Position numbers and translations under genes: made by a program
Shown: positions 16,303 through 57,862 of the stretch, one piece after another
Position numbering within the stretch: position 1 is the stretch's first letter
Layout: every line of letters starts with the position of its first letter
Source of the DNA: Mucilaginibacter gotjawali
GTDB taxonomy: Bacteria; Bacteroidota; Bacteroidia; Sphingobacteriales; Sphingobacteriaceae
Direction of reading: 5' to 3'
DNA: 64,000 nucleotides
Assembly: GCF_002355435.1 (NCBI RefSeq)
Contig: NZ_AP017313.1
Location: forward strand, 5,952,001 to 6,016,000
Notes under the pieces: generated by a model
Databases searched by the model: none
What the model was told of the DNA's origin: nothing
What the model saw: only the letters and a program-made list of their open reading frames with translations

Positions 16303-16453
16303 TGTGTTTTAAAGTTTAAATAAAGATACTTTTTATTTAAATATCTCATTTACAATAATTTATCATCCAGCTCTGTTTCAGCGACGTATTCCATTATAGA
16401 TTTTTGGAAAACAATCTTTCGAAATAGCCGTTTATTTTTAAAAACGTAAAAGT

Positions 16454-17913: not shown

Positions 17914-17916
17914 GTA

Positions 17917-29918: not shown

Positions 29919-32708
29919 TTAAGCGGGTTCCACTTCAGTTACCGCTTTTGCGACAGCGATTTTTTGTGATAAGTCGTTTTTATTTTCAATCCTATCAAGG
30001 CATTGTTGCAATACCTGCGCAAATTCTATATCGTTAGGTGCTTTAAATATTGTATTGTGTTCGCCCGGGATAAGGTGGATATTAACACCCTTTAATGCAT
30101 AAGGTTTCCAACCCATATAAACACTATCTTCTGCATAAAATGTTCGTGTTTCTGCCTTAAAAGCATCAACTTCAATATCCAGTGGATAAAACCGGTAACG
30201 ATTGAGCGCCTCTGTGTTATATTTATCTATTTTATGAGCATAGCCAAAAAAACCCTGCTTATTATGTCCTTTACCATGTCTTAATGACCAATACCGCCCC
30301 ATCATCCTTCGTTTAAATAAGGTTGTTTTTTCAGCCAGGGTACTCTTAAAGCCCGCGCTGAACTTAAAAATATACAGCAGGCTTTTAATATAAAAACCCG
30401 TATTTTTTGCAATCTTCAATAACAGCGGATCATAATAGGTGCACTTTTCAATGTAGGCATCAAATAAAGCAAGCATTGATACTTCTTTTCCGAGTGCTTT
30501 TATTTGCCTGGTCATTTCAAAAGCGATCACCCCTCCCATAGAAAAACCGCCCAGGGCGTATGGCCCGTCTGGATTTTGCCTGGTTATTGCGTTTACATAG
30601 TGGGCTGCTATTTCCTCAATGGTCTTTAACGGCTCATCTATGCCATTCAAGCCTTTAGCCTGCAAGCCGTAAACGGGCTGATCGGGCGAAAGCCCGGTGG
30701 CAACCGCATTAAACAACAGCACATTCAGCCCGGCGCCATGCACCAGGTATAAAGGTGTTTTGTGTCCGTGTGGCTTTATTGGCACCAACGAATCCCAGGT
30801 AATTGAAACGCCATCGCGGCTAATCAATTGAGCCGTGCGCTCAACAGTTTGGTGTTCAAACAATGTGGCTAACGGCAAACGTTTCCCGGTTTTTTGTTCG
30901 ATCATTGTCATCACTTTAACAGCAATGAGCGAATGCCCGCCAATTTGAAAGAAGTTATCATAAATACCAACCTTCTCCAGGTTTAGCGCTTCTGCCCATA
31001 TGTCTGCTACAAGCTTTTCGATGTTTGTACGCGGGGCGATATAAAAACTTACCTCGTCCGTTTCGGGTCCCGCATACAATAACAAAGCCTTTTTATCTAC
31101 TTTTCCGTTGCTGGTTAAAGGGATTGAATCAATTTTCACAAAGCTGCCTGGTACCATATAATCCGGTAACTGGCTATTTAGGAAGGACCTCAGCTCGGCA
31201 GGACCTGCATCACCAACCACGTATGCCACCAGTTCTTTTTCACGGTCCTTAACCGGCTTAGCCAGCACTACGGCTGTTTTTACTTTTTCGTGTTTTTGCA
31301 GGAAAGCATTAATTTCTCCCAGCTCAATCCTGAATCCCCTGATTTTCACCTGGTCATCAATGCGGCCTAAAAACTCCATGTTCAGATCAGGCATCATACG
31401 GCCCATATCGCCGGTTTTATACATTCTTCCGCCCATCTGATCGGTAAACGGATCCTTTAAAAAAGCTTTGCCGGTTTTTTCAGTATCCTGCGCATAACCC
31501 CGGGCTACTCCGACACCGCCAATATATAGTTCCCCAACTTCGCCAACAGGAACGGGGTTTAGCTGCTCATCAAGTATGTAGTAAAAATTATTGCTCATCG
31601 GCCTACCGTAGGGGATGCTGGCCCAATGAGCTTCCGTTTTATCTATCGGGTAAAAATTACTCCATACAGTCCCTTCTGTTGCGCCACCAAGACTGATGGT
31701 TTTGGCAGCCGGAAAATATTTTTTTATCCTGTCCGGCAGCCCAACCGGTATCCAGTCGCCGCTCATAAAAACCAGCCGTAAAGCATTTTCAAAACGGGGA
31801 CTTTCAACCGTTTCCTGCACGCCGATAAAATAATCGATGGTTGAGGGCACCGAATCCCAAAAAGTTACACGGTGTTTCGTCATCAGTTCCTTTAACTTCG
31901 GCACGTCCATCAATTCCTGTTTTTCAATGATCAGGAGAGACCCACCAGCTGCCAGCAACCCGAAAATATCATAAACAGACAGGTCGAAACACATAGAAGT
32001 TACGAATAGCAGGCAATCATCAGGCCCAACGTTAAACTCCCTGTTTACCCACAATACCAAATTAACCGCCGAATGGTGTTCTATCATTACGCCCTTTGGC
32101 ATGCCTGTTGAGCCGGAGGTATAAATAGTGTAGGCAAGCTGTTTACTATCTGCTTTTATAGCGGGTTTTTCGTTTTTAAATTGATCAGTATTAATTTCTC
32201 TGAGCTTTACCAGCTGACTTTCGTCAAGAGAAGCTGACAATGGATATTTACAATCGGTGATTACGAGGCTTACTTCCGAGTTTTTTAGGATATATTGCTG
32301 CCTGTCCAAAGGGTACTCCGGATCAATGGGTACATAAGCGCCGCCGGCCTTCAGTATCGCCAGCATACCAACGATCATATCAAAATTCCGTGAAACCAAA
32401 AGCCCAACATTATCGCCGCTTTGTACGCCATGGGTTATAAGATAATGCGCCAGCTGATTGGCTTTTTTATTTAGCTCATCATAGCGCATTATTTGGTCGT
32501 TACGGCGCAGGGCAATTGCCTGCGGGGTCCGTAATACCTGCTCCTCAAAAAGGTCAGTAAGTGTTTTTTCACGCGGATAAAAAACAACCGTGTTGTTAAA
32601 TTCCTTCAGTAACTGATAGTCTTTCACATTCTCAAATTTTTCGGACCAAAAACTTGTTTTAGGTTCAACTTTATCAGTTTTGGATATTGTCATAATTTTA
32701 GGGGGCAT
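29919..32708 (-). CDS. Stand-alone NRPS-like protein: adenylation, carrier and thioesterase domains
   Basis: 929 residues. A short linker (FWSEKFENV) precedes an adenylation domain (about 50-545) with YTSGSTGMPKG, FDLSVYDIFG, SLGGATE, YKTGD and NGKVDKK. The carrier domain (560-630) has phosphopantetheine Ser593 in GGHSLIAV. The thioesterase (640-910) has GFSMGG (Ser723) and a late His in PGEHNTI. Aligned to GrsA, the specificity residues read D L Y D V M L V W K; the nearest code I know is the cysteine code DLYNLSLIWK, and FMSGDWIPVGLP and SLGGATEGTVWSNFYPI are typical of cysteine-type domains. There is no condensation domain, so it probably loads one amino acid and transfers it through the thioesterase. 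No phosphopantetheinyl transferase is in the window. Divergent from the ABC exporter. Confidence 0.92.
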   Translation of the reverse strand: MPPKIMTISKTDKVEPKTSFWSEKFENVKDYQLLKEFNNTVVFYPREKTLTDLFEEQVLRTPQAIALRRNDQIMRYDELNKKANQLAHYLITHGVQSGDNVGLLVSRNFDMIVGMLAILKAGGAYVPIDPEYPLDRQQYILKNSEVSLVITDCKYPLSASLDESQLVKLREINTDQFKNEKPAIKADSKQLAYTIYTSGSTGMPKGVMIEHHSAVNLVLWVNREFNVGPDDCLLFVTSMCFDLSVYDIFGLLAAGGSLLIIEKQELMDVPKLKELMTKHRVTFWDSVPSTIDYFIGVQETVESPRFENALRLVFMSGDWIPVGLPDRIKKYFPAAKTISLGGATEGTVWSNFYPIDKTEAHWASIPYGRPMSNNFYYILDEQLNPVPVGEVGELYIGGVGVARGYAQDTEKTGKAFLKDPFTDQMGGRMYKTGDMGRMMPDLNMEFLGRIDDQVKIRGFRIELGEINAFLQKHEKVKTAVVLAKPVKDREKELVAYVVGDAGPAELRSFLNSQLPDYMVPGSFVKIDSIPLTSNGKVDKKALLLYAGPETDEVSFYIAPRTNIEKLVADIWAEALNLEKVGIYDNFFQIGGHSLIAVKVMTMIEQKTGKRLPLATLFEHQTVERTAQLISRDGVSITWDSLVPIKPHGHKTPLYLVHGAGLNVLLFNAVATGLSPDQPVYGLQAKGLNGIDEPLKTIEEIAAHYVNAITRQNPDGPYALGGFSMGGVIAFEMTRQIKALGKEVSMLALFDAYIEKCTYYDPLLLKIAKNTGFYIKSLLYIFKFSAGFKSTLAEKTTLFKRRMMGRYWSLRHGKGHNKQGFFGYAHKIDKYNTEALNRYRFYPLDIEVDAFKAETRTFYAEDSVYMGWKPYALKGVNIHLIPGEHNTIFKAPNDIEFAQVLQQCLDRIENKNDLSQKIAVAKAVTEVEPA

Positions 32709-32899
32709 GGTTGATCATGGCTTATACGCAAACAGATTTTTTTGGTTACCTGCCCTACTTCAACTATCCCTACCCGGTACAATCCGGCAGGCATAACTCC
32801 TTGCGGGATATAAATGGCACGCACATCATTTAAAATCTTTTTCTCAAGGCAACTTAACCTTCAGCCATACCGTAACGCATATAGTAAGTAAATTCCTTA

Positions 32900-32915
32900 A
32901 AATGAATATTCATTT
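32900..32915. promoter_or_regulatory. 16-bp perfect palindrome upstream of the ABC exporter gene
   Basis: AAATGAATATTCATTT is a perfect dyad centred 36 bases before the TTG start of the exporter, in the 235-base divergent region shared with the NRPS gene. It may be an operator controlling the biosynthetic cluster. Such A/T-rich dyads arise by chance fairly often. Confidence 0.35.
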
Positions 32916-32943
32916 ATCCTGACAGGGGATGCTTTGTTAAAAA

Positions 32944-34638
32944 TTGATACCAATTCACAAGCCTTTGAAACATTTTATTTTAACGGTTCTCAGCATTCTA
33001 AACCCTAAAGAAAGGGTGAAAATGTTGCTGCACGCTGTGTTTGACAGCATGATCGGCTTGCTTGATATTGTATTTTTGGGCGGTTTGTTAATAGTGGTTA
33101 ATTTTTATACATCAGGCGAACTGCCAGGTCACCCCGTTTATTTACAATCCATCAGTCATAGAAATCCCCTGTTGCTGGTGAGTACCTTCTTATTGTTATT
33201 CAGTTTAAAAAACTGGTTCGGGTACCTCCTCACAAAAAAAGAATATGCGTTTTTTTACAACATAGCTTCGCGCTTATCACAACGTAACGTAATGCACTAT
33301 CTGCAGGGAAATTACGTCCAATTTGTAAATACCGATTCATCGGTGTTTTTCCGCAAAATAAGCCAGCAACCTGTTGAATTCAGTAATTACATATTAACCA
33401 ATTTACAGCAGATCATATCGCAAAGCATCCTGATCTTTTTTACCATTACTGCGATCCTGTTTTATCACCCCGGCCTGTTCATTTCTCTTTTTTTGCTATT
33501 GCTGCCACCCGTTATTTTACTTGGCTGGATGATCAAAAAGAAACTAAAGCATATCCGTGCGGACATCAAAATCAACAGCCAGTTAACCATACAACATTTG
33601 CAGGAATCATTATCCGGGTATGTAGAAAGCAATATTTATGATAAGAACCCTTTTTTTACTGATCGGTATTACAAACACCAGCAGCAGATGAATAATCATA
33701 TTGCGACCCAGCAAACTTTACAGAGCCTGCCTTCCCGGCTGATAGAAACTTTCGCGGTGCTGGGTTTTTTTATTTTGATCGCTGTAAATAAATTGTCGGC
33801 AAGTGTGCCCGCAATCAGCTTGCTTACTATAGGCGTTTTTATGGCGGCGGCCTATAAGATCATCCCGGGGATTATCAAAATTTTAAATAGCGCCGGCCAA
33901 ATCAAGACCTATCAATTTACGCTGAATGATCTTGCTTCTCCCACAGGGGAAATGCACCATGCAAAAAACCCCGGCTCGCCCGGTTCAATCAATTCCATTC
34001 AATTTGAAAATATTCATTTTAAATACAAGCATCACGATGTATTAAACGGAACGAGCTTTTACATTGTGCCCGGAGATTTTGTCGGTATGTCTGCCCCATC
34101 AGGAAAAGGGAAAACCACCATCATCAACCTTTTATTGGGCTTCCTGGAACCTGACAGCGGGACGATAACTGTTAACGATAAAAAAACAGATGCTGCTGAC
34201 AGAATGATGTATCGCGGCAACATTTCCTACGTAAAACAACAGCCTTTTTTTATCCATGATACTATTTTAAAAAACATTACGCTGGCCGAAGATGGATTTA
34301 AAAAAAGCAAACTCGATGAAGTGATAGCGTTCTGCGGTCTTGCTCAGTTATTGGAGAAATATCCGGAGGGGCTGCAAAAAGTGATCCGCGAAAACGGTAA
34401 AAACATCAGTGGCGGTCAGCGGCAAAGGATAATGCTTGCCCGGGCGCTATACCATGATTTCGACCTGCTTATCCTGGATGAGCCTTTTGGCGAGATGGAT
34501 GATTTTTCGGAAAGAACCATATTAATACGCCTGCAGGAGCTTGCCCTGCAAGGCAAGATGATCCTTTTTATCACGCACAACAAAGCAAGTTTATCATTTT
34601 GTAATAAAATATTTTCGATGGATGAAGCGTACGCCTGA
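32944..34638 (+). CDS. ABC transporter, fused permease and ATP-binding protein
   Basis: 564 residues from a TTG start at 32944; a later ATG at 33022 would remove the first 26 residues. Six membrane helices fill residues 30-320. The ATPase domain has Walker A GMSAPSGKGKTT (381-392, first Gly of the loop replaced by Ala), signature ISGGQRQR, Walker B LLILDEPFGEMD and switch His in ITHNK. Such half-size type IV exporters dimerise and export lipids, peptides or natural products. It overlaps the next glycosyltransferase gene by 17 bases, so the two are coupled. Export of the cluster product is the natural guess. Confidence 0.92.
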   Translation: MIPIHKPLKHFILTVLSILNPKERVKMLLHAVFDSMIGLLDIVFLGGLLIVVNFYTSGELPGHPVYLQSISHRNPLLLVSTFLLLFSLKNWFGYLLTKKEYAFFYNIASRLSQRNVMHYLQGNYVQFVNTDSSVFFRKISQQPVEFSNYILTNLQQIISQSILIFFTITAILFYHPGLFISLFLLLLPPVILLGWMIKKKLKHIRADIKINSQLTIQHLQESLSGYVESNIYDKNPFFTDRYYKHQQQMNNHIATQQTLQSLPSRLIETFAVLGFFILIAVNKLSASVPAISLLTIGVFMAAAYKIIPGIIKILNSAGQIKTYQFTLNDLASPTGEMHHAKNPGSPGSINSIQFENIHFKYKHHDVLNGTSFYIVPGDFVGMSAPSGKGKTTIINLLLGFLEPDSGTITVNDKKTDAADRMMYRGNISYVKQQPFFIHDTILKNITLAEDGFKKSKLDEVIAFCGLAQLLEKYPEGLQKVIRENGKNISGGQRQRIMLARALYHDFDLLILDEPFGEMDDFSERTILIRLQELALQGKMILFITHNKASLSFCNKIFSMDEAYA

Positions 34639-35677
34639 AACCCTGGTGATCCTGAGTCCCGGCTTCCCCGAAAATGAGGCCGATACCGCGTGCATTCCAC
34701 CCCAGCAAATATTTGCCAGGGCGCTTAAAAAGATCTGCCCCGGGCTTAATATTGTTGTTATCAGCTTTCAATACCCTTTTGTTAAAAGTGTATATAACTG
34801 GCATGGCATAAAAGTTTATACTATCGGCGGGAAAGAAAAAGGCGGTTATAATCGCGCGCTTGTATGGTTAAAAGCCTGGAGGATATTATTGAAACTAAAA
34901 AAGGAAACCAAACTCCTGGGCATCCTCAGTTTTTGGTTTGGGGAGTGCGCCTTTGTTGGCAGCTATTTTGCAAAGCGATACCGGCTTATCCATTACGCCT
35001 GGGTATTGGGGCAGGATGCAAAAAGCGGGAATAAATATTTCAGATGGGTAAAGCCCAGTGGCAATGAGCTGATAGCGCTGTCGGATTTTATTGCGACAGA
35101 GATCAGGCGAAATTATTGGATTTCGGCCCAGCAGGTAATCCCCGTTGGTATCGACACCTCGATGTTCGGGCCCGCGCCCGCAAAAAGGGACATAGATATT
35201 TTAGGCGCCGGTTCATTGATCCCCCTGAAGCAATACCATATTTTTGTAGAAGTTGTTGCTTCCTTAAAGAGTTACTTTCCAAATATAAAAGCTGTTATCT
35301 GCGGCAAGGGCCCTGAATTAGCGCATCTGGAGGCATTGGCCTCCTCTCTGAATTTGCAAAACAACCTCGTGTTTGCTGGTGAGTTACCACAAAAGGAAGT
35401 ATTAGCTTTAATGCAACGGTCGAAAGTATTTTTACACCCTTCTGCATATGAAGGCTTTGGTTCTGTATTATCCGAAGCTTTATACGCCGGCGCCCACGTA
35501 GTTTCTTTCTGTAAACCGATGAACAAAGATTACCGGCATCATTACGTGGTAAAAACCCCGGATGAAATGAATGCTGCTTTATCCGCCATATTAAAAAATA
35601 CACACCGTGGCCACGACCCTGTTTTAATGTGCCCGATTGAACAAATTGCCAAAAATGTGATCAGTTTGTTCGTTTGA
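34622..35677 (+). CDS. Glycosyltransferase family 4 protein
   Basis: 351 residues with the GT-B fold. The N-domain starts with LVILSPGFPENEAD. The C-domain shows DILGAGSLIPLKQYHIFVEV, AVICGKGPEL and the donor-site motif HPSAYEGFGSVLSEAL with the paired Glu residues of GT4 retaining enzymes. It starts inside the end of the ABC exporter gene (17-base overlap), so it is translated with it. It may glycosylate the cluster product. Donor and acceptor are unknown. Convergent with the next gene. Confidence 0.9.
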   Translation: MKRTPETLVILSPGFPENEADTACIPPQQIFARALKKICPGLNIVVISFQYPFVKSVYNWHGIKVYTIGGKEKGGYNRALVWLKAWRILLKLKKETKLLGILSFWFGECAFVGSYFAKRYRLIHYAWVLGQDAKSGNKYFRWVKPSGNELIALSDFIATEIRRNYWISAQQVIPVGIDTSMFGPAPAKRDIDILGAGSLIPLKQYHIFVEVVASLKSYFPNIKAVICGKGPELAHLEALASSLNLQNNLVFAGELPQKEVLALMQRSKVFLHPSAYEGFGSVLSEALYAGAHVVSFCKPMNKDYRHHYVVKTPDEMNAALSAILKNTHRGHDPVLMCPIEQIAKNVISLFV

Positions 35678-35704
35678 TCCCGTTCATATGTTGATTTTAC
35701 CTGG

Positions 35705-36802
35705 CTAAAGGCCTGCTGCAACATGCTGGATTTTTGCGGCTATCGCTTCAAACGAAAGGTTTTGTTTGAAGTAAGCTAATGACCTGGCCCTTTTTTCCGC
35801 TATATCCAGGTGTTTTGTCTGTTCCAATGCAGCCAGCAACGCTTTTTGATTACCCGGCTCGTACAATAAACCGCATTTTCCGTTATCCGTCATCGTCCTG
35901 AAGGAAAATATATCCGTAACTAAAGGTACGCAACCGCATGCCATTGCCTCGCAAAGCGCAGTACCACTCCCTTCATAATGCGATCCGGAAATAAAAAAAT
36001 CAGCACTGTTGAACCAGTAAAGCAATTCCTCATGTGGAACCTCTCCAACCATCGTGATCGCATTTTTTACAGCGGCCTTTTCCACCTCCTGCTTTATTTC
36101 ATTTAGCAATTCTTCCGTATGGTAGATCATGTATAGCCGCGCTCCTGGGTTAGTTTCCGTAAATTTCAGGAATGCCTTTACAACATTCAAAGGATCCTTG
36201 TTCGCATTCAGCCGGCCAACCCATAAAAATACAGGCACCCCCTCTGCCCCTGTTATTAATTTGGCGGCGGCCCTTTTCATTGGATAAAAACAGGAGGATA
36301 CTTCCATCACTTCATGTATTTTTCCAGCTGAAGCGATATTACCCCTTTTCACCCAGTCTATGCCTATCGATGCCGCTGCAAATAAATAAGCGCCGACAAA
36401 ACGCCCGGCTGTTCTTTGAAGATACTTCTTTACACCGGTAAATGGCTTTTCAGCATGATGCTGTACAATGACTTTTGTTTTCCCACCCAACAACAAACCC
36501 GACGAGATCAGCTGTAAAGGCTGGTGCAAACCCTGAATAAATAAAATATCCGGCTTTAAGCTTTTTATAAAACGGATTAAACCGAACGGGAAATACGCTT
36601 TATTTTTGCCAAAATCAACAAAGTGGGTAACAACTCCATTGTGTTCGCATTTACCCCGGTAATTGATCCTTATTATATTATGAACTGTATTTTCTTTACT
36701 TAAGCGTTCCAACACACCCGAATAAACCGCCGTTCTTTCGAACCAGCTTTCGGGCGAATCCAGGTCTGCCAAATAAGCAAAACTTACAAAAACGTAGGTC
36801 AT
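35705..36802 (-). CDS. Glycosyltransferase (GT4-like)
   Basis: 365 residues, GT-B fold. The N-terminus (TYVFVSFAYLADLDSPESWF) is unlike typical GGxxR starts, but the C-domain has VFLWVGRLNANKDPLNVVKA, ITMVGEVPHEELLYWFNSAD and SHYEGSGTALCEAMACGCVP, the usual retaining GT4 donor site. It is the third gene of the leftward unit methyltransferase - amidohydrolase - glycosyltransferase, 40 bases after the amidohydrolase stop. It converges on the other GT gene with 27 bases between. Specificity unknown. Confidence 0.88.
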   Translation of the reverse strand: MTYVFVSFAYLADLDSPESWFERTAVYSGVLERLSKENTVHNIIRINYRGKCEHNGVVTHFVDFGKNKAYFPFGLIRFIKSLKPDILFIQGLHQPLQLISSGLLLGGKTKVIVQHHAEKPFTGVKKYLQRTAGRFVGAYLFAAASIGIDWVKRGNIASAGKIHEVMEVSSCFYPMKRAAAKLITGAEGVPVFLWVGRLNANKDPLNVVKAFLKFTETNPGARLYMIYHTEELLNEIKQEVEKAAVKNAITMVGEVPHEELLYWFNSADFFISGSHYEGSGTALCEAMACGCVPLVTDIFSFRTMTDNGKCGLLYEPGNQKALLAALEQTKHLDIAEKRARSLAYFKQNLSFEAIAAKIQHVAAGL

Positions 36803-36842
36803 TAGTTTGTTGGATTATATTTTATCGGTAATATGCACTGAA

Positions 36843-38003
36843 TCAATTATTTGCACTTAACGGAAACCGCACTGCAGGATAATATTCCTTTATCTTTTCC
36901 ATTAAACCAGGTAAATCACCCTGGACATATTTGCCGACCCCATTTATATATACTTTACTGTATTCAGCAACGTGGATATTTTTTAACTGCCCGAGGATAG
37001 TTTCATCAAACAACCTGATATTTCCTTTATGCATCACCAGTAACAAATCAGCCGGCGTGATTGCGAAAAACGCATCAAAGCCTTTTTTATGGTCCTTTAT
37101 TTTTGCAATAACAATATCAGCATCCTTACCGGCTGCTACTTCGCCATTGTTCATCAGCCATGTTTTCGATGCATTTTGATTAACTGTTTGAAATAGTTCA
37201 GCGTCGGAAATTTGTTTCGTTGCCCGGGCACTCCGCAGATGTTCCCATATATCCCAATGGCTCGTCAGGGTTGAATCTGTTCCGAATAACAACCGTGTGC
37301 TGTTTTTTAAACCATTTACCTGCGCGGTTTGGTTAAGTAAAAAATAATTGGATTGCGGGCACCAAACTATAGCTTCAAAGTTTTTGGCCTGGGCTTCTGA
37401 CATGGCAACAGCGTGTACCCCGATCAATTTTTTTCGCAGTAAGTTCCACCTGGTTAGCTGATCAATTTCATCATAGGAAGGCCAGTCGACCCCCTCGCCA
37501 ATATGTATGTTTACGGGGAGCTTTATTTTTAAAGGATTGTTCAGTTTGATCTTCCAGCCTTTTTCAAACTTTACCGAATGCAAACAATGGCTGTTTTCAA
37601 AAACGGTTAACGGCGCATCCTCCAGCAACTGTTTTTCTCCATGATTCACTACCGTTGTAACCCCACCCAGCAGGTTTTTATAAACACCCCACACCGAACG
37701 CAATTGCTCAGGTACTTTTAAAACCGCGGCGATTTCGGTCTTATATGCCTGGTGGATATCTTTGCCCCATTCGGTATAATTGCTATAAATCCGGGTGCCT
37801 AATTGTTGGAACAAGTTAAAATCAAGGTGATCGTGCGAATTGATCAGGCCCGGGAAAACTAGTGCGTCCCGAAAGGTTATTTGTATCTCTTCAATTGAAG
37901 TGGTTCCCGGATTTGACGATACGTTTGCTATTTGCTCACCGGAAATCCCAACATCAACAACTTCGTCGGTGCCGGCCATCTTCAGGTTGTTAAGTTTCAT
38001 CAC
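36843..38003 (-). CDS. Amidohydrolase family protein (cytosine/guanine deaminase-like fold)
   Basis: 386 residues of the metal-dependent amidohydrolase superfamily. The metal ligands are visible: HDH at 57-59 in GLINSHDHLD, His in VNIHIGEG, His in IGVHAVAM and Asp in LFGTDSTLTSHW. Flanking beta-sandwich strands and KDADIVIAKI match the deaminase branch (TRZ/ATZ/SsnA-type). The reaction could be deamination or amide/ring hydrolysis. Its start overlaps the stop of the methyltransferase gene by 4 bases (ATGA), a tight coupling that places it in the biosynthetic cluster. Substrate unknown; the short loop regions differ from housekeeping guanine deaminase. Confidence 0.82.
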   Translation of the reverse strand: MMKLNNLKMAGTDEVVDVGISGEQIANVSSNPGTTSIEEIQITFRDALVFPGLINSHDHLDFNLFQQLGTRIYSNYTEWGKDIHQAYKTEIAAVLKVPEQLRSVWGVYKNLLGGVTTVVNHGEKQLLEDAPLTVFENSHCLHSVKFEKGWKIKLNNPLKIKLPVNIHIGEGVDWPSYDEIDQLTRWNLLRKKLIGVHAVAMSEAQAKNFEAIVWCPQSNYFLLNQTAQVNGLKNSTRLLFGTDSTLTSHWDIWEHLRSARATKQISDAELFQTVNQNASKTWLMNNGEVAAGKDADIVIAKIKDHKKGFDAFFAITPADLLLVMHKGNIRLFDETILGQLKNIHVAEYSKVYINGVGKYVQGDLPGLMEKIKEYYPAVRFPLSANN

Positions 38004-38740
38004 GGCCTCCTGAAATGTATCCCGTAAATTACCGGGAAGCCCTTAAATTTTTCGTAAACCAACACTGCATTTTGGTCGGTATAATAATGTTTTACCGATT
38101 CATCAATTTTCCTTTCGATTTCATTCACGGCTTTAAAGCCATTTCTCAAAAGTATTTCCTTAATGCTGTTAACAGTGTGTACAAAATTCCTGACTGCTAT
38201 TTGTTTGTTCCCGTGTTTGAAAGTTCTTTTACCTCCAAAAGCCAGTATATCGGGATGAAAATCTGTTATAATAATGTCCCCCTCATCTTTTGTGATCCGG
38301 CACCAGGCCTCCAGGGCTTCTTCCAGGTTTTCGATATGGGCAACGGTTAGCGTTGATACAAGCACATCAAAATTATGATCGCTGATGCCCGAAAAACTAT
38401 TGTCGGTGATGGTATAGGTTTCCGCTGCCGGAAATTTTTCCTTCAGTTTTTGGAGCATCCCCGGAGAGACGTCAAACCCGGCTAAACTTGCAGGCTCGTT
38501 TTTAAAAATTCCGGGCCAGTGCCTGCCGGTGCCACAGCCAATATCAGCAACAACTTTATCACGTATGTCAACACCTACCATTAATTTCGAAAACAACATT
38601 TTATCCAGATCGAGCATGAGGTTACCCGGCTGCGAATCATAATTTTCGGCCCAAAGGTCATACGCCGCCACAACTTCCCTTTCAGCTACCTGTGGCGGGA
38701 ACAAATGCCTGCTGATATATTTTTTTACTGTTTTGATCAT
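38000..38740 (-). CDS. Class I SAM-dependent methyltransferase
   Basis: I start at ATG 38740 (246 residues, MIKTVKKYISRH) because the 35 upstream in-frame residues are lysine/arginine-rich filler. The pattern AAYDLWAENYDSQPGN followed by motif I VADIGCGTG (64-72), GFDVSPGMLQKLKEKFP and STLTVAHIENLEEAL is typical of the ubiE/methyltransf_11 group. It is the first gene of the leftward unit and overlaps the amidohydrolase by 4 bases. It likely methylates an intermediate or the final product of the cluster. Confidence 0.88.
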   Translation of the reverse strand: MIKTVKKYISRHLFPPQVAEREVVAAYDLWAENYDSQPGNLMLDLDKMLFSKLMVGVDIRDKVVADIGCGTGRHWPGIFKNEPASLAGFDVSPGMLQKLKEKFPAAETYTITDNSFSGISDHNFDVLVSTLTVAHIENLEEALEAWCRITKDEGDIIITDFHPDILAFGGKRTFKHGNKQIAVRNFVHTVNSIKEILLRNGFKAVNEIERKIDESVKHYYTDQNAVLVYEKFKGFPVIYGIHFRRP

Positions 38741-38928
38741 GATATGAAGCTGGTTTTGATCTGGAATATGCAACCCTTTACTAAAGAAATACGGAGCATC
38801 ACCCCGAAAGGTTGCTCTGCGATTTTTATTTCCCTTTACAGGCAACCTTAGTTTTTTGCCGGGCGTATTGTTAACAGTGACCGTTCATATCAGTAAAGAA
38901 ATAGTTTGATGGTTAAATTGGGTTTGTT

Positions 38929-38998
38929 GTTTATCGCCCCCAATTAGAGGGTTAAAAATAGCGTCGGGTTTAAACCCGACGCTATCGGGGGCATAAAC
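38929..38998. repeat. Nested palindrome between the methyltransferase and radical SAM units
   Basis: The centre is a perfect 28-bp palindrome (38958-38985) with half-site ATAGCGTCGGGTTT. Around it an outer stem pairs GTTTATCGCCCCC (38929-38941) with GGGGGCATAAAC (38987-38998), with one bulged base. It lies between two divergent operons, 32 bases before the ATG at 39030. It could be a dispersed repeat, a transcription block or a regulator site; there is no T run on the plus side. Confidence 0.65.
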
Positions 38999-39029
38999 AG
39001 CAATTCAAATCCATATTGTGAGTTATAAA

Positions 39030-40529
39030 ATGAGTAAGATTTTATTATTTAATCCCCAAAGCGCAAACGGTAAATACCGGATACCCAACTCTATTTTAAG
39101 TATAGCAGCGTCTGTTGAAGGAAAACACGAATGGGTGATTGTTGACGGCAACCGTGATGCAAATCCGTTGGAAGTAATAGCATCCTATTTGAGCACGGGC
39201 GACTATAAATACCTTGGGTTTACGGTAATGCCGGGGCCCCAACTAAAGCAATCCATACCTTTTGCAAAAACAATAAAGGAAAGGTTCCCTCATACCACTA
39301 TGATATGGGGGGGCTATTTTCCCTCAAGCCATCCAAAAATCATTCTTGATTCGGGCTATGTTGATTTTATTATCAACGGCCCCGGCGACCATGCGTTTCC
39401 GTCGCTAATCGATGCACTTGAAGATAACAAGCCTTACGAGTTTATCAGGAATCTGATTTATAAGGCGGGTAACGAGATTGTTAAAACCCAAAAGGAAGAC
39501 TTGTTCGACCAGGATCCACTGCCGCCCTTGCCTTACGATAAACTGAACAAGATCTATAACATTAAAAAATACCTTGGTAAAACATTTTTAGGGGAAAGAA
39601 CACTGGCCTATCATTCCAGCATTGGCTGCCCTTTTACCTGCTCTTTTTGCGCTGTCGTGCCCATTTTTGAGGCAAGGTGGAAAGCAAAATCGGCACAAAC
39701 GGTTTATAATGATGTTAAATACATCAAGGATAAATGGGGGGCCGATGCCATTGAGTTTCACGATAATAATTTCTTTGTTTCGGAGAAAAGGACGGTGGAA
39801 TTCGCAAAGCTGATAAAACCGGAAAAAATGTCGTGGTGGGGAATGGCGCGGATTGATACGATGGACAAGTTTAGCGATGCCTCTTTAGCATTGATCAGGG
39901 AGGCTGGGTGCAAGATCATTTTCTTTGGCGCCGAAAGCGGCAATAACCTGATCCTGGACCAACTGGATAAAGGAGGCACTCAAACAGGTAATCAGATCAT
40001 CAGATTTGCGGAGCGGTTAAAGAAATTTGATATTATCCCCGAGTACTCTTTTGTGTTGGGCACCCCGGCGCCAACAGCAAAACAGGTGGAAGCCCAGATT
40101 GATTTCGAAATAGATTTTATTAAAAAAGTAAAGGCAGTAAATCCCCGGACCGAAATTGTGCTGTACACCTATAGCCCGGTTCCTACGGAAGGGTCGGCCC
40201 TTTTTAAACAGGTAGAAGCTGCTGGGTTTAAATATCCAAAAGTATTGGAAGACTGGATTAGCCCTGCCTGGGAAAACTTTGACCTGCGGAAAAATCCGCT
40301 TACCCCCTGGTTAACGCCCGAAATGATCGGTAAGATTCAAAACTTTGAAACAGTTTTAAACGGTGTTTATCCAACCGTTACAGATATCCGCCTCAGCAGC
40401 ATCAAACGAAAAGCGATACAGCTGGTAGCCGGCATGCGTTACAAGGCGAATGTATATAATTACCCTTACGAAATAAAGCTGCTGCAAAAAGTTTGGAAAT
40501 ACCGCCAACCGGAAATCCAGGGATTTTAA
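39030..40529 (+). CDS. B12-binding domain radical SAM protein
   Basis: 499 residues from ATG 39030 (a GTG at 39018 in frame is less likely). The N-terminal 150 residues have the cobalamin-binding Rossmann pattern (ILLFNPQSANGKYRIPNSIL, MIWGGYFPSSHP, VDFIINGPGD) without the DxHxxG His. The radical SAM barrel follows with the 4Fe-4S motif CPFTCSFC (Cys200, Cys204, Cys207), then FGAESGNNLILDQLDKGG. Such class B enzymes typically methylate unactivated carbons or make rings. First gene of a rightward run of five. Substrate unknown. Confidence 0.93.
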   Translation: MSKILLFNPQSANGKYRIPNSILSIAASVEGKHEWVIVDGNRDANPLEVIASYLSTGDYKYLGFTVMPGPQLKQSIPFAKTIKERFPHTTMIWGGYFPSSHPKIILDSGYVDFIINGPGDHAFPSLIDALEDNKPYEFIRNLIYKAGNEIVKTQKEDLFDQDPLPPLPYDKLNKIYNIKKYLGKTFLGERTLAYHSSIGCPFTCSFCAVVPIFEARWKAKSAQTVYNDVKYIKDKWGADAIEFHDNNFFVSEKRTVEFAKLIKPEKMSWWGMARIDTMDKFSDASLALIREAGCKIIFFGAESGNNLILDQLDKGGTQTGNQIIRFAERLKKFDIIPEYSFVLGTPAPTAKQVEAQIDFEIDFIKKVKAVNPRTEIVLYTYSPVPTEGSALFKQVEAAGFKYPKVLEDWISPAWENFDLRKNPLTPWLTPEMIGKIQNFETVLNGVYPTVTDIRLSSIKRKAIQLVAGMRYKANVYNYPYEIKLLQKVWKYRQPEIQGF

Positions 40530-40538
40530 ACGTTTTTT

Positions 40539-41282
40539 ATGATAACGGCCGGAAATGATATGGAAACAACCCTCGACGAAACCAATACTTCCACCTTCGA
40601 AGATCTGTATATCAGCGTCAGGAAAAAAGAGCGGCGGATAGTCTCTGACGGGGAGTTGATGTTTTTGCCGGATGTGGATGCATCGCATGTCCACTATAAT
40701 GAATGGCTGATCAGAAAACGGTCATCCATGCGATTGACCGCATATCTGCAAAAGAAAAAGCGCACCTTAAAGATTCTCGAAATTGGATGCGGAAATGGCT
40801 GGCTGGCTTCCCGGATTTCGGCAATTCCACATACAACAGTAATTGGACTGGATATAAATGAACCTGAAATCAACCAGGCAAAACGGGTTTTTAAAAAGGA
40901 CAATCTTGATTTTTTAACAGGCACTTTTACCCCGGAATTGTTCGCCGCTGAAAAGTTCGATATAATTTTATTCGCAGCATCAATTCAATATTTCACCTCA
41001 CTAAATGACGTCGTGCAACAAGCGCTTTGTTGTTTAACAGAACATGGAGAAATACACATTGTCGATTCGCATTTCTACGAACCATCCGAAGTAAAAAATG
41101 CAGCGGCCAGGTGCATTGACTATTACACAAACCTGGGCTTTCCGGAAATGGCCGGCCATTATTTTCATCATTCAACGGCCGATCTTCTTCCTTTTAATTG
41201 CACCATGCTCATAAACCCCGGGAGTTTAATGAACCGGATCAGCAAAAAGGAGCCTTTTTATTGGATAATGATAAAGAATTAA
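40539..41282 (+). CDS. Class I SAM-dependent methyltransferase
   Basis: 247 residues. After an N-terminal region with EDLYISVRKKERRIVSDGEL, motif I reads ILEIGCGNGWLASRIS, then VIGLDINEPEINQAKRVF and FDIILFAASIQYFTSLNDVV. The N-terminal extension before motif I is longer than in small ubiE-like enzymes. It lies 9 bases after the first radical SAM gene and 4 before the SPASM gene. It is probably a tailoring enzyme for the same product; acceptor unknown. Confidence 0.88.
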   Translation: MITAGNDMETTLDETNTSTFEDLYISVRKKERRIVSDGELMFLPDVDASHVHYNEWLIRKRSSMRLTAYLQKKKRTLKILEIGCGNGWLASRISAIPHTTVIGLDINEPEINQAKRVFKKDNLDFLTGTFTPELFAAEKFDIILFAASIQYFTSLNDVVQQALCCLTEHGEIHIVDSHFYEPSEVKNAAARCIDYYTNLGFPEMAGHYFHHSTADLLPFNCTMLINPGSLMNRISKKEPFYWIMIKN

Positions 41283-41286
41283 TCAG

Positions 41287-42333
41287 ATGTCTGCACAATC
41301 AGTATACCAAACATTCAACAGGTTCCGTACCCTGCAAACGAGCAGGATAAGCGCACTGCCTGTTGTTATACTGATGCCGCACAGCGCCTGCAACTGCAGG
41401 TGTGTGATGTGCGATATATGGAAAGACAATAAAAACCTGAAACAACTGACTGAACAGGATGTTCGGCAGCTTTTGGATTCATTGAAAAAATTCGGGACAC
41501 TGCAGGTGGTGATGTCGGGCGGCGAGGCTTTACTTAATGCAAATTTCTTCCGGCTATGCGAGATTCTTAAATCAGCTGACATCAATATAACCTTGCTGAC
41601 CACCGGCCTCACTATTAAAAAGAATGCGGATGAAATCCTGCAATGGGTTGATGACCTGATCGTCTCGCTGGATGGCGACGAGGCCCTGCACGATGCGATC
41701 AGGAATATTCCGGGGGCATTCAATAAGTTGAAAGAAGGGGTAGAATTTATCCACTCTTTAGATCCTGATTTCCCGATAACGGCCAGGACAGTGATCCACC
41801 GGCTGAATTTCAGGAATTGGGAAGCGATCATCCGATCTGCAAAAAGTATGGAAATCAACCAGGTGAGCTTTTTGCCGGCCGATGTTAGCAGCCATGCTTT
41901 CAACAGGCAAATGGCCTGGACTGAACCCAAGCAACATGAAATATTGATCCCGGAAAAAGAATTGCCTGAATTATTGCAGGTGATCAACAGAATAATAGCT
42001 AATAATTTTGATTTTGAATCCGGTTTTATTGCCGAATCTCCAGCAAAACTCAGGCAGATACATGATTATTACGCGGCTTTTTATGGTTTAAACCCCTTCC
42101 CGTTTAAAAAATGCAATGCGCCCTGGGTATCAACCGTGATTGAGGCGGATGGCAATGTGCGGCCGTGTTTTTTTCATGAGGTGGTGGGTAATATCCGGGA
42201 TTCTTCACTGGCAACTATACTAAACAGCGACGAGGTAATAAATTTTAGGAAAACGCTGGATATGCATACCCATCCAACCTGTGTAAAATGTGTTTGTTCG
42301 TTAAACTTGTCTCCTTTTGCAAAGCTGAGCTAA
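41287..42333 (+). CDS. Radical SAM protein with SPASM domain
   Basis: 348 residues. The 4Fe-4S site is SACNCRCVMCDIW (Cys35, Cys39, Cys42, with an extra Cys37). MSGGEALLN is the usual SAM-binding GGE motif. The C-terminal SPASM-type auxiliary-cluster region has CNAPWVSTVIEADGNVRPC and CVKCVCSLN. There is no precursor peptide gene next to it, so a peptide-maturase role is not supported. Sugar- or amino-acid-acting dehydrogenases and epimerases in this group are plausible parallels. It sits between two methyltransferase and B12 radical SAM genes in one operon. Confidence 0.93.
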   Translation: MSAQSVYQTFNRFRTLQTSRISALPVVILMPHSACNCRCVMCDIWKDNKNLKQLTEQDVRQLLDSLKKFGTLQVVMSGGEALLNANFFRLCEILKSADINITLLTTGLTIKKNADEILQWVDDLIVSLDGDEALHDAIRNIPGAFNKLKEGVEFIHSLDPDFPITARTVIHRLNFRNWEAIIRSAKSMEINQVSFLPADVSSHAFNRQMAWTEPKQHEILIPEKELPELLQVINRIIANNFDFESGFIAESPAKLRQIHDYYAAFYGLNPFPFKKCNAPWVSTVIEADGNVRPCFFHEVVGNIRDSSLATILNSDEVINFRKTLDMHTHPTCVKCVCSLNLSPFAKLS

Positions 42334-42343
42334 TTTAAAAAGT

Positions 42344-43807
42344 ATGAAAAATATCCTTTTCACCCATTCTTACTTTTTACGTTTCGACCCGAAGCAATGG
42401 CAACTGGGCCAGCCTTATCCGCCGTTGGGTACTTTGTACGCAGCGGCACTAATGCGGCAGCATGATTACGCCGTTTCATTGTTTGATACGATGTTTAGCA
42501 GCGATCCGGAAGAAATTACCCAGGCGATAACAACACACCGCCCTGATTTTTTGGTGATCTATGATGACGGCTTCAATTACCTCACCAAAATGTGTTTGAC
42601 CAATATGCGCTCGGCCGCCTTCAGCATGTGCAAAATTGCCCGGGCGGAAGGTTGTAAAGTGATTGTTTCAAGCTCAGATTCCACGGATCATTTTGCTGAG
42701 TATTTAAACGAGGGCGCCGATTTTGTGATCATCGGCGAGGCAGAACATACGTTGCTGGAGTTAGTGGATCATATTGAAAATGGCGATGACGATTATTCGG
42801 CCATAAACGGACTAGCTTATTTAAAGGACGGCAAAGCCACAAAAACACCGGGCAGACCGGTTTTAAAAGACCTGGACAGTATGCCGATGCCGGCCTGGGA
42901 CCTGGTTGATATAGGGCAATACCGGGAAACCTGGCTTAAACATACCGGGTATTTCTCGCTGAACATGAGCACTACGCGCGGCTGCCCATTTAAATGTAAC
43001 TGGTGCGCCAAACCCATTTATGGCAATCGCTACAATTCGCGCAGCCCTGCAAATGTGGTTGAAGAGATCAAATTACTGAAGGACCGGTATCATGTCGATC
43101 ATATCTGGTTTTGTGATGATATTTTCGGGTTAAAACCGGGCTGGACCAGGGTGATGGCCGAACTTTTGGAAAAGGAGCAGATCAGGATCCGCTTCAAGAT
43201 CCAATCAAGGGCCGATTTGCTGGCAGAAGAAGATACCGTAAAAGCACTGGCAGAAGCCGGCTGCGAAAATGTCTGGATCGGCGCTGAAAGCGGTTCGCAA
43301 AAAATCCTTGATGCAATGGACAAGGGCATTACTGTTGAGCAGATCAGCAGGGCAACTACGCTGATGAAACAACAGGGGATCAAGCCGTCATTTTTCATCC
43401 AGTTTGGCTATCCCGGCGAATTGAAAGAAGACATCGGGCTAACGATAGATATGATCAATGCACTGCTTCCTTTTGAAATTGGGATCTCTGTTTCCTATCC
43501 ATTACCAGGAACCGTGTTTTATGAAAAAGTGAAGGCTGACCTGAAGAAAAAAACCAACTGGACAGATTCGGATGAAATGGCGTTAATGTTCCACAATACT
43601 TTCCCGCCATCTTATTACAAACAACTGCACCGGTATGTTCATCAAAACTACCATATGCACCTGGCAAAAAACAGCCTGGTAAAGTTGGTCCGCGACCCCT
43701 TGCGCGCTAACTCAAAAAGCCTGCGAAAAGCCTTGTCCGTTTTCTATCATACACCGGCAACGTTTGTTGAAGGTTTAAGACTAAGGAAATTGGAGGTTGA
43801 AAAGTGA
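42344..43807 (+). CDS. B12-binding domain radical SAM protein
   Basis: 487 residues. The B12-binding domain (about 1-150: PYPPLGTLYAAALMRQH, DFVIIGEAEHTLLELV) lacks DxHxxG. The radical SAM site is TRGCPFKCNWCAKP (Cys214, Cys218, Cys221), followed by WIGAESGSQKILDAMDKGI, FIQFGYPGE and SVSYPLPGT. The layout is that of BchE/methyltransferase-type class B enzymes. Its stop overlaps the GTG start of the next methyltransferase by 4 bases (GTGA), so the two are translationally coupled. Substrate unknown. Confidence 0.93.
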   Translation: MKNILFTHSYFLRFDPKQWQLGQPYPPLGTLYAAALMRQHDYAVSLFDTMFSSDPEEITQAITTHRPDFLVIYDDGFNYLTKMCLTNMRSAAFSMCKIARAEGCKVIVSSSDSTDHFAEYLNEGADFVIIGEAEHTLLELVDHIENGDDDYSAINGLAYLKDGKATKTPGRPVLKDLDSMPMPAWDLVDIGQYRETWLKHTGYFSLNMSTTRGCPFKCNWCAKPIYGNRYNSRSPANVVEEIKLLKDRYHVDHIWFCDDIFGLKPGWTRVMAELLEKEQIRIRFKIQSRADLLAEEDTVKALAEAGCENVWIGAESGSQKILDAMDKGITVEQISRATTLMKQQGIKPSFFIQFGYPGELKEDIGLTIDMINALLPFEIGISVSYPLPGTVFYEKVKADLKKKTNWTDSDEMALMFHNTFPPSYYKQLHRYVHQNYHMHLAKNSLVKLVRDPLRANSKSLRKALSVFYHTPATFVEGLRLRKLEVEK

Positions 43808-44625
43808 AAACGACCGCAATAGATATAAATGAGCAACTCACCGAAACGGCTTTTACCGGGCAATCCGTTGTTTTCGATCAGATCTATTCTGGCAATACCA
43901 TTATCAGCTATAAAAGAGAAAGAGTACGTGCTCATGTATTACCATATTTAGCGCCGGGAAGCACTATCCTGGAGTTGAACAGCGGCACAGGCGAAGACGC
44001 TTTGTTTTTTGCGCAGAAGGGGCATAAAGTTCATGCTACCGATATCTCACCCGGCATGCAACAGCAACTTGTTCAAAAGGTAAAGCAGGCCGGCCTCGAA
44101 AACCGGGTGAGCAATGAGCTTTGTTCATTTACTAATTTAAACCAATTGGGAAATAATGGCCCCTTTGATTTGATCTTCTCCAATTTCGCAGGCTTAAATT
44201 GCACCGGCGAACTGGATAAAGTACTTACGTCATTTAACGATTTATTAAAACCCGGGGGACTAATCACCCTTGTAGTATTACCAAAGTTTTGCCTGTGGGA
44301 AACGCTGCTGATTTTTAAGGGTAAATTCCGTACAGCATTCAGGCGATTTTTTAGCAGCAAAGGAAGGTCGGCCCATGTTGATGGTGTTTATTTTAAATGC
44401 TGGTATTATAACCCTTCCTATATTATCAAAAGACTTAAAGGTGAATTTGATTTATTAAGCATTGAGGGTTTGTGCACTATTGTTCCGCCGTCCTATATAG
44501 AGGGTTTTGCAGAGAAGCACCCAACTGCCTATCAATCTTTAACCGCTAAGGAAAATAGGTTAAAATCACGCTGGCCCTGGAAGTTCATCGGGGATTACTA
44601 TATTATTTCGATGAAGAAAAAATGA
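43804..44625 (+). CDS. Class I SAM-dependent methyltransferase
   Basis: 273 residues starting at GTG 43804 inside the stop of the previous gene. SAM motif I is ILELNSGTGEDALFFAQ, a variant with Asn in place of the usual Gly, followed by VHATDISPGM and FDLIFSNFAGLNCTGELDKV. It ends the rightward operon and is followed by a terminator. The tight coupling to the B12 radical SAM gene suggests that the two act on the same intermediate. Confidence 0.88.
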   Translation: MKTTAIDINEQLTETAFTGQSVVFDQIYSGNTIISYKRERVRAHVLPYLAPGSTILELNSGTGEDALFFAQKGHKVHATDISPGMQQQLVQKVKQAGLENRVSNELCSFTNLNQLGNNGPFDLIFSNFAGLNCTGELDKVLTSFNDLLKPGGLITLVVLPKFCLWETLLIFKGKFRTAFRRFFSSKGRSAHVDGVYFKCWYYNPSYIIKRLKGEFDLLSIEGLCTIVPPSYIEGFAEKHPTAYQSLTAKENRLKSRWPWKFIGDYYIISMKKK

Positions 44626-45640: not shown

Positions 45641-46597
45641 TTAAGATGTTGTGGTGGCTTCACTGCCTTGCAAAATGGACGAAACCAGGCGTTCATATTT
45701 GGCAAGCAATTCACATTGAAAATTCCCGGGGTCAGGTTTTGAAAAGTGCTTCCCCGATGCCATGCCCATAATAAACCCATGACTGTTTTGCTTTTTTTCT
45801 TCCGTCTTTTTTGCCCACCTGCTCTCTGTTATTTTCATCAGCATATTATCTATCGCGTTGCCCAGGCGGTTATCCAACAAGAACTCCGTTACCAGTTTAA
45901 AAAACGAAGCTTTTACGGGCTTTGCCGTTGCTACACGCATATTTTTGTTTGGCAGAAACTCCCTGGTCCATGAGTTCTCCAAATAAAATTGCTCAAACAC
46001 CAGGTCGCCCTGTAACGGGATTAATGTCCCTATTTCAATGGCGGTGTAAATGTTTTTTTCGGGTATTTCCAGTTGCTGTTCATCCACATAATAATTCATG
46101 CAAAAGTAATGCTCCTTTTTCACCAGGAAGGTTAGCTTTTTAAAGCAGTGCATGATCGTCCTGGCAACCCACAGCCGGTTTTTAGCAGTGATAATAAACA
46201 AATCTATATCCGAGAATTCATCTGCAAAATTCTTAGACAGAGAGCCAGAAATGGCAATGCCGCGTACGTACGGAAAGCAGACTAATATATTGCCGATCTT
46301 CCCGGCTACTTTGATTAATTCCGCAGCCATTTTATTGCCTTCGTTTCTCCGGATAATCTGATAATGATCTTTTTTTAAAGTATAAAACCGGTCGAATTGA
46401 TGAATAACGCCGTTTACAGTAAGGCATCTCAATGCATCTTCAAATTCCTCATATGGATATTTCCTTTTGAGAAATACATATACTTCCGCCCTGGTTAAAG
46501 GATAATTGAACATGTCGAAATAGGCAAGCGTTGCCAATATATTTTCTTTGACTTCGGGCATGTTTTTATTAATTAAAGGGTACGAAGTGTTTTGCAT
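45641..46597 (-). CDS. Nucleotidyltransferase-fold protein with N-terminal winged helix
   Basis: 318 residues (an internal Met at 46561 is a possible start). An N-terminal winged-helix-like part (DMFNYPLTRAEVYVFLKRK, LTVNGVIHQFDRFYTLKK) precedes a polymerase-beta type core with GSLSKNFADEFSDIDLFIIT, the GS and D-x-D metal motif. These proteins occur in Bacteroidota polysaccharide clusters, and their substrate (nucleotide transfer to a protein, lipid or antibiotic-like acceptor) is unknown. It lies downstream of the O-antigen ligase-like gene by 53 bases and is the last gene of that leftward run. Confidence 0.8.
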   Translation of the reverse strand: MQNTSYPLINKNMPEVKENILATLAYFDMFNYPLTRAEVYVFLKRKYPYEEFEDALRCLTVNGVIHQFDRFYTLKKDHYQIIRRNEGNKMAAELIKVAGKIGNILVCFPYVRGIAISGSLSKNFADEFSDIDLFIITAKNRLWVARTIMHCFKKLTFLVKKEHYFCMNYYVDEQQLEIPEKNIYTAIEIGTLIPLQGDLVFEQFYLENSWTREFLPNKNMRVATAKPVKASFFKLVTEFLLDNRLGNAIDNMLMKITESRWAKKTEEKKQNSHGFIMGMASGKHFSKPDPGNFQCELLAKYERLVSSILQGSEATTTS

Positions 46598-57298: not shown

Positions 57299-57302
57299 AA
57301 AA

Positions 57303-57854: not shown

Positions 57855-57862
57855 ACAATAAA

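Follow-up and report, generated by a model that had tools for sequence, protein, structure and literature searches.

The 64-kb window of the Mucilaginibacter gotjawali genome analysed here (the whole stretch of 64,000 nucleotides, from a single-contig genome of 6.34 Mb) contains three radical S-adenosylmethionine (SAM) genes packed among genes for methyltransferases, glycosyltransferases, an amidohydrolase and exporters. This region is probably, at roughly two chances in three, a surface-glycan locus, of which the radical SAM genes would form the modular tailoring cassette. An earlier reading of the letters (the original prediction) had placed a stand-alone small-molecule cluster at 29919-44625. 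The unit was found to run on into Wzy_C, glycosyltransferase and Wzx genes, indicating that it is not a stand-alone small-molecule cluster. A surface glycan is a better match for these genes than a glycoside metabolite that is secreted.

Organization of the locus

The eleven open reading frames (ORFs) described in the original prediction were all found in place, overlaps included, and Pfam matches agreed with its reading of their domains. Its limits for the cluster were partly right: the genes in between are conserved, the right end had been set too early, as the locus runs to ~55,162, and the left end takes in a non-conserved protein with AMP-binding, carrier and thioesterase domains (A-T-TE). 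The members of the unit, with the labels used below, are as follows.

32944..34638, plus strand: ABC, an ABC exporter, MsbA/PglK-like by sub-threshold NCBIfam matches and likely a lipid-linked glycan flippase (Pfam, NCBIfam)
34622..35677, plus strand: GT4a, GT4 glycosyltransferase (Pfam)
35705..36802, minus strand: GT4b, GT4 glycosyltransferase (Pfam)
36843..38003, minus strand: AHY, amidohydrolase, deaminase-type and ATZ/TRZ-like (Pfam, NCBIfam)
38000..38845, minus strand: MT1, SAM methyltransferase that usually accompanies AHY (Pfam)
39018..40529, plus strand: RS1, B12-binding radical SAM protein (Pfam; CxxxCxxC at 204-211)
40539..41282, plus strand: MT2, SAM methyltransferase (Pfam)
41287..42333, plus strand: RS2, SPASM radical SAM protein (Pfam, invariant cysteines)
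42344..43807, plus strand: RS3, B12-binding radical SAM protein, with MT3 the most consistent member (Pfam)
43804..44625, plus strand: MT3, SAM methyltransferase (Pfam)
45641..46597, minus strand: NTP, winged-helix and Pol-beta-type nucleotidyltransferase, a core member (Pfam, invariant motif residues)
46651..48045, minus strand: Wzy_C, O-antigen ligase/polymerase family protein (PF04932)
47999..49126, minus strand: DUF1972/GT4 glycosyltransferase, Cps2T-like below cut-off (Pfam, NCBIfam)
49123..50199, minus strand: GT4 glycosyltransferase (Pfam)
50210..51172, minus strand: GT2 glycosyltransferase (Pfam)
51159..52787, minus strand: U51, membrane protein with no Pfam match, by eye possibly a second polymerase; syntenic in relatives
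52882..54297, minus strand: Wzx-type flippase, Polysacc_synt (Pfam); syntenic in relatives
54362..55162, minus strand: GT2 glycosyltransferase, the probable right end of the locus (Pfam)

The ABC and GT4a genes overlap by 17 bases, and AHY and MT1 by 4 bases. In the run RS1-MT2-RS2-RS3-MT3, gaps of 9, 4 and 10 bases are followed by a 4-base overlap between RS3 and MT3. The genome holds 21 Radical_SAM domain matches, three of them inside ~4 kb here, which, together with the recurrence of the same gene order in dozens of genomes, places the clustering of these genes above chance. The Wzy_C protein matched PF04932 with 61.1 bits (cut-off 31.7). The GC content of the cluster as first described equals that of the window (43.2% in both), with no break, and that of the polymer genes is 40.5%.

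A perfect 28-base palindrome lies at 38958-38985 of the window, between the divergent MT1 and RS1 genes (core GCGTCGGGTTTAAACCCGACGC). The 18-base core is unique in the genome, and a search of 137 loci with the 14-base half-site found the palindrome in L009 only.

Conservation in the genus and close relatives

The co-occurrence of the genes was measured in a sample of 100 genomes of the genus, which is free of conditioning on RS2. RS1 was present in 64, RS2 in 62 and AHY in 68 of these genomes. All 62 genomes with RS2 also carried AHY, which lay within 5 kb on the same contig in 56 and on a different contig in 6. Related loci were also fetched with RS2 as the query, so that the presence of RS2 in them is by construction. 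Among 80 of the 143 such loci, the order ABC-GT4a-GT4b-AHY-MT1-RS1-MT2-RS2-RS3-MT3-NTP-Wzy_C-GT(47999)-GT(49123)-GT2-U51 recurs with insertions and losses; it is present in contigs of Mucilaginibacter, Pedobacter and Dyadobacter and, in part, in Chitinophagaceae. The claim that the genes form one conserved unit was thus borne out with A-T-TE excepted. The co-occurrence survey that had been proposed as a check found the other genes conserved together and A-T-TE outside the set, and the contrary picture, of homologs scattered and never adjacent, was not seen.

Membership was counted in 68 loci spanning RS3, drawn from L009-L101 and L105-L109, in which RS3 is present by construction and RS2 largely so (one contig is a duplicate, L109 = L010, and most are too short leftward to assess A-T-TE). 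MT3 was found in all 68, RS1 in 66, RS2 in 64, NTP in 60 and MT2 in 50. The remaining members were similarly frequent: AHY (61), GT4a (61), GT4b (60), MT1 (59), ABC (57) and Wzy_C (50). Clustering placed a WcaJ-like priming transferase next to the unit in 16 loci, most of them of Chitinophagaceae type, with Dyadobacter also represented; the single representative compared with the model scored below its cut-off. Other additions in relatives include GNAT, Wzz, and GT87 or GT9 genes and, by eye, a polysaccharide deacetylase. In 14 loci (L014, L017, L024, L030 and ten more), RS2 and RS3 are separated by a membrane protein of ~490 aa that by eye resembles an ArnT-like glycosyltransferase.

Conservation across other Bacteroidota

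RS1 was detected in 19 of 149 genomes of the class (E <= 1e-60; counting this genome, two fragments and one match at 33% identity) and in 14 of 296 genomes of the phylum (E <= 1e-100), and RS2 in 4 of the 149. From the 27 genomes with an RS1 match in these two sets, besides G000 and G114, 20 RS1-centred loci were compared. Three of those left out were fragments (G029, G118, G428), one was the match at 33% identity (G087), and three belong to the same genus or family as an included genome (G077, G313, G368). RS3 and/or NTP accompany RS1 in 17 of the 20 loci. NTP was found in 15, RS3 and MT3 in 14 each, a HemK-like methyltransferase (c5) in 13, RS2 in 7 (two at <30% identity), and AHY and MT1 together in the same 4. 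As a control, 14 query proteins were compared with 20 stretches of 20 kb taken at round coordinates in eight of the same genomes, and none of the 20 gave a match. RS1, RS3, methyltransferases and NTP are the most widespread part of the unit.

Glycan-type genes were identified, by Pfam or blastp, near 13 of the 17 cassette loci (L089, L090, L092-L095, L098, L111-L116). They include Wzx, Wzy_C or Wzz in L092-L094, an MBOAT/AlgX-like gene in L098, and GT87 and GT9 genes among L112, L115 and L116; the remaining positive loci were scored by likeness to the glycosyltransferases of the window. In one distant locus an MbnB/TglH/ChrH-type gene and its DUF2063 partner adjoin the RS1 cassette (L100:10864-12433). 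Carriage on plasmids was considered and rejected: the RS1 relatives that occur on plasmids share only 23-26% identity with it (12 of 75 matches listed), and NTP had none.

Modular gain and loss

Individual members of the cassette have been lost in nature. Two loci (L105/L106) are without RS2 and MT2, and two others (L107/L108) are without RS1 and RS2, L108 also lacking MT1. All four retain RS3, MT3, NTP, AHY and the glycan genes. In five further loci (L067, L073, L080, L087, L090), a GT2-like gene and the gene c14 occupy the place where AHY-MT1 would stand. The c14 protein has no Pfam match and by eye resembles c2 (Flavin_Reduct, 8.6e-05, below cut-off). The pattern suits a series of separate decoration steps better than one obligatory chain. 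RS1, RS2, MT2 and the AHY-MT1 pair would then be separable add-ons to RS3 and MT3.

Radical SAM enzymes and methyltransferases

The CxxxCxxC motif is intact in RS1, RS2 and RS3, and its cysteines are invariant in the alignments. In RS2, C35, C39 and C42, together with C276, C294, C332, C335 and C337 of the SPASM region, are invariant in 86 sequences. RS1 and RS3 carry an N-terminal B12-binding domain (PF02310, 35.1 and 33.7 bits, respectively; cut-off 32.1) and are predicted to be cobalamin-binding radical SAM enzymes, which may use cobalamin and transfer methyl groups. The mean column identity of RS1 was 68% over 24 Bacteroidota sequences. The predicted RS1 model had a pLDDT of 85.6, low around the cluster-binding loop (209-216), and its nearest solved structures were MgmA, TsrM, TokK, OxsB, CysS and AprD4 (TM 0.58-0.65 on query). 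By sequence, the closest solved relative of RS3 was AprD4 (3.7e-20), followed by MgmA. AprD4 acts without B12, and precedents among related enzymes include C-methylation, deoxygenation and ring rearrangement. No aminocyclitol pathway genes were seen near the cassette.

RS1, RS2, RS3, AHY, NTP and MT1-MT3 all scored below the cut-off of every NCBIfam model listed (for RS2, RS3 and AHY, among the best 25 matches). A defence system was also considered and rejected. PADLOC gave generic matches only, namely viperin models to RS2 (1e-13), a candidate model to RS3 (5e-07) and MADS components to the methyltransferases and ABC, with no match for NTP, RS1 or AHY.

Amidohydrolase and nucleotidyltransferase

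Residues H57, H59, H167, E170, H197 and D243 of AHY are invariant in 69 sequences. The motif of deaminase-type amidohydrolases consists of HxH, H, H and D metal ligands and the glutamate of HxxE. The best NCBIfam match of AHY was the aminofutalosine deaminase family, at 49.8 bits against a cut-off of 320. Speculatively, AHY might remove 5'-deoxyadenosine or S-adenosylhomocysteine, a role suggested by its deaminase motifs and by the description of 5'-deoxyadenosine as a toxic by-product in PMC6079011. One distant locus (L117:2560-3717, 15892-18091) has a further amidohydrolase close to its cassette, along with a nucleoside transporter and a nucleoside phosphorylase, a faint hint of a nucleoside substrate for AHY.

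In NTP, S117, G118, S119, D130 and D132 are invariant in 38 sequences. Pol-beta-type minimal nucleotidyltransferases are marked by a GS motif and a DxD catalytic pair. NTP matched PF01909 at 23.1 bits (cut-off 21), and its predicted model had a pLDDT of 91.2. When the model was compared by VIA-align, winged-helix rows dominated, and ANT(4')/kanamycin nucleotidyltransferase entries scored Z 8.4-8.7, near the tool's "common" level; residues 90-214 aligned with ANT(4') at Z 8.7 and an rmsd of 3.2 over 112 residues. Foldseek found nothing at E <= 0.001, and the sequence gave no match to PDB sequences at E 1. It is a speculative suggestion that NTP adenylylates an intermediate or a partner.

Proposed pathway and points against it

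The following scheme, deduced from the genes, is proposed for the surface-glycan locus. A priming transferase from another part of the genome would start a sugar chain on undecaprenyl phosphate, and the GT4 and GT2 enzymes would extend that chain. One or more sugar residues might then be reworked by radical chemistry, through RS3 with MT3 and additionally RS1, RS2, MT2 and AHY-MT1, and the ordinary methyltransferases would add O- or N-methyl groups. AHY could act as a tailoring deaminase or amidohydrolase, or clear 5'-deoxyadenosine and S-adenosylhomocysteine, and NTP may nucleotidylate an intermediate or a partner protein. The lipid-linked unit would be flipped by the ABC exporter and/or Wzx, and polymerised or ligated by the Wzy_C-type protein. 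The substrates, the chemistry and the order of the steps are put forward as presumptive, and the final carrier could be capsule, lipopolysaccharide or protein. A glycosylated, exported product, as in the original prediction, is judged probable.

Several observations weigh against this proposal. The genome contains 5 matches to the priming transferase family PF02397 and 6 to the Wza family PF02563, and none of either lies in the window, so that a complete pathway is not shown at the locus. The distribution of RS1 and RS2 across the class and the phylum is patchy. Four cassette loci (L091, L099, L100, L117), in which gene annotation is partial, showed no glycosyltransferase. In three of the 20 RS1-centred loci (L096, L097 and L101, the last ending at a contig end), RS1 has no cassette partner, and RS1 may therefore also work alone. 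AHY is absent from 7 of the 68 loci that keep RS3, which speaks against an obligatory by-product clearance and weakens that role for AHY. Furthermore, NTP is like ANT(4')/kanamycin nucleotidyltransferase at the fold or superfamily level only, and adds an N-terminal winged helix, and the likeness of RS3 to the aminoglycoside diol-dehydratase AprD4 is likewise confined to the superfamily level.

Alternative explanations

The gene at the left edge of the cluster as first described is listed here as a neighbour.

29919..32708, minus strand: A-T-TE, single-module nonribosomal peptide synthetase (NRPS)-like protein of 929 aa (Pfam); outside the conserved unit

In the original prediction this protein loaded an amino acid onto a secreted, aminoacylated and methylated glycoside made by a stand-alone cluster, an account that we now consider quite improbable. 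A-T-TE adjoins the exporter and its motifs are intact, with AMP-binding (54-405), carrier (566-629) and thioesterase (from 652) domains and no condensation domain by Pfam. Homologs occur in 71 of the 100 genus genomes (E <= 1e-150). A close ortholog (84-87%) beside the unit was found only in this genome, G114 and G153, and the G153 match contains stops; the nearest other homolog is 57 kb from RS2 (G215). Given a close ortholog by the unit in 3 of 100 genomes, as against RS2 in 62, A-T-TE appears to be a lineage-specific neighbour outside the conserved set, so that little speaks for "aminoacylated". Elsewhere the rest of the unit is conserved in the absence of A-T-TE, and a stand-alone NRPS-type metabolite was rejected as the principal product on this ground. 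NRPS-like and glycan genes do meet in the lineage. A second locus of the same genome (contig 3443848-3470700; L102, L103) encodes a 2209-aa A/KS/AT/carrier/aminotransferase protein, a C-A-T-TE protein, a PPTase, a priming sugar transferase, an outer-membrane efflux protein, Wzy_C, Wzx, a GT2 and an A-T-TE protein 45% identical to that of the window. This mixture of A-T-TE and NRPS/polyketide synthase genes with Wzx, Wzy_C and a priming transferase makes a link between A-T-TE and glycans possible. By eye, a C-A-T-TE / A-T-TE pair ~14 kb apart was also seen in at least a dozen genus genomes.

The remaining alternatives concern the product on which the cassette acts. The locus might make the outer glycan of the general protein O-glycosylation system of Bacteroidota, with the cassette tailoring that glycan. 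Passages of PMC12871550 describe such glycans as thought to be built on undecaprenyl phosphate by flippase and glycosyltransferase loci, and as often methylated, and TIGR03097, a model of a putative O-glycosylation ligase, matches the Wzy_C protein below its threshold. However, the Bacteroides locus outlined there starts with metG and then wzx and ends with two conserved glycosyltransferases, and the words "radical" and "methyltransferase" occur nowhere in the main text of PMC12871550. The Wzx gene here is flanked by a GT2 gene and a membrane protein gene; an LFG-type locus was accordingly rejected, and the O-glycan explanation as a whole is unlikely. A cassette for making or altering a membrane lipid or the head group of a glycolipid, by hopanoid- or ladderane-like B12 radical SAM chemistry with sugars added by the glycan genes, is very unlikely. 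HpnJ, BchE and rSAM_ladder_B12 are among the best NCBIfam matches of RS1 and RS3, and GT87 and GT9 transferases do lie beside the cassette in distant relatives, but all of these NCBIfam matches are far below the cut-offs, and the annotated genes at 24-59 kb of the window include none recognised as serving lipid biosynthesis. The combination of SPASM and B12 radical SAM proteins with an ABC exporter, and the MbnB/TglH/ChrH-type gene that adjoins RS1 in L100, would also suit a pathway for a ribosomally synthesized and post-translationally modified peptide (RiPP), in which RS2 would be the maturase, the B12 enzymes C-methyltransferases, and the precursor peptide overlooked. None of 21 small intergenic ORFs (>=18 aa) had a match beyond L009 and L010/L109, a search that covers neither shorter, nested nor distant precursors; moreover, RS2 and ABC fall far below the listed RiPP-specific cut-offs, and ABC has no peptidase domain. 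A RiPP pathway was rejected, as no conserved precursor was found, and is extremely improbable.

Neighbouring genes

Two further features border or interrupt the surface-glycan locus.

44725-45414: DUF4397 protein gene between MT3 and NTP (Pfam)
55419-58792: block of ECF sigma factor, unknown protein, YceI and DUF5777 beta-barrel genes beside the locus

The DUF4397 protein fell into no family common to the related loci, and a 139-aa ORF stands in its place in L010/L109. The sigma factor/unknown/YceI/DUF5777 block begins one ORF past MT3 in L041 and L069, and its YceI/DUF5777 part lies near the cassette in L100.

Implications

A broader proposal, which we hold tentatively and lean against, is that the cassette belongs to an undescribed pathway found across Bacteroidota. 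Its recurring set, a pair of B12 radical SAM enzymes accompanied in most cases by methyltransferases and NTP and optionally by the SPASM enzyme and AHY-MT1, would make a new radical-made sugar or aminocyclitol on a surface glycan, varied by the gain or loss of single radical SAM genes. Both the enzyme types and the type of locus are familiar. For their combination, its conservation and its modular variation, no description turned up in the open-access literature, in agreement with the original prediction, which knew of no pathway with this gene set; this is weak evidence, as most subscription journals lie outside that coverage. Most of what is known of B12 radical SAM enzymes comes from antibiotics, cofactors and lipids. 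A conserved cassette of such enzymes in the surface-glycan loci of many Bacteroidota would imply that radical modification of envelope glycans is widespread and has gone unnoticed. RS1 sequences from different families of the class are ~60% identical, so that solving a single case would allow loci throughout the phylum to be annotated, and the natural strains without RS1, RS2 or AHY-MT1 are ready comparisons for assigning the step of each enzyme.

Comparison with known systems

RS1 and RS3 share with the class B radical SAM enzymes a B12-binding domain and the CxxxCxxC motif, and the RS1 model shares their fold. RS1 differs from them in its structural-alignment identity, which is only 14-17%, and in its genomic company, which is that of glycan synthesis. 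Both proteins score far below every listed cut-off for the NCBIfam families BchE, HpnJ and PhpK. AHY has the metal ligands and the glutamate of the ATZ/TRZ deaminases (aminofutalosine, 5'-deoxyadenosine/S-adenosylhomocysteine), with a score far below the family cut-off.

With the O-glycosylation locus (LFG) of Bacteroidota, whose glycans are methylated according to the same passages of PMC12871550, the window shares a flippase and glycosyltransferases. It differs in having no metG-wzx start and in the presence of polymerase/ligase-type and radical SAM genes. The Wzx/Wzy surface polysaccharide loci are similar in their Wzx, Wzy_C, several GT4 and GT2 enzymes and methyltransferases, and relatives of the window add a priming transferase, an acetyltransferase and Wzz. 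The window itself has no priming transferase or Wza in place, and a surface polymer is the product suggested by its genes. It departs further from the Wzx/Wzy loci in its three radical SAM enzymes, two of them B12-binding, its winged-helix nucleotidyltransferase and its deaminase-type amidohydrolase, which are conserved in many Bacteroidota.

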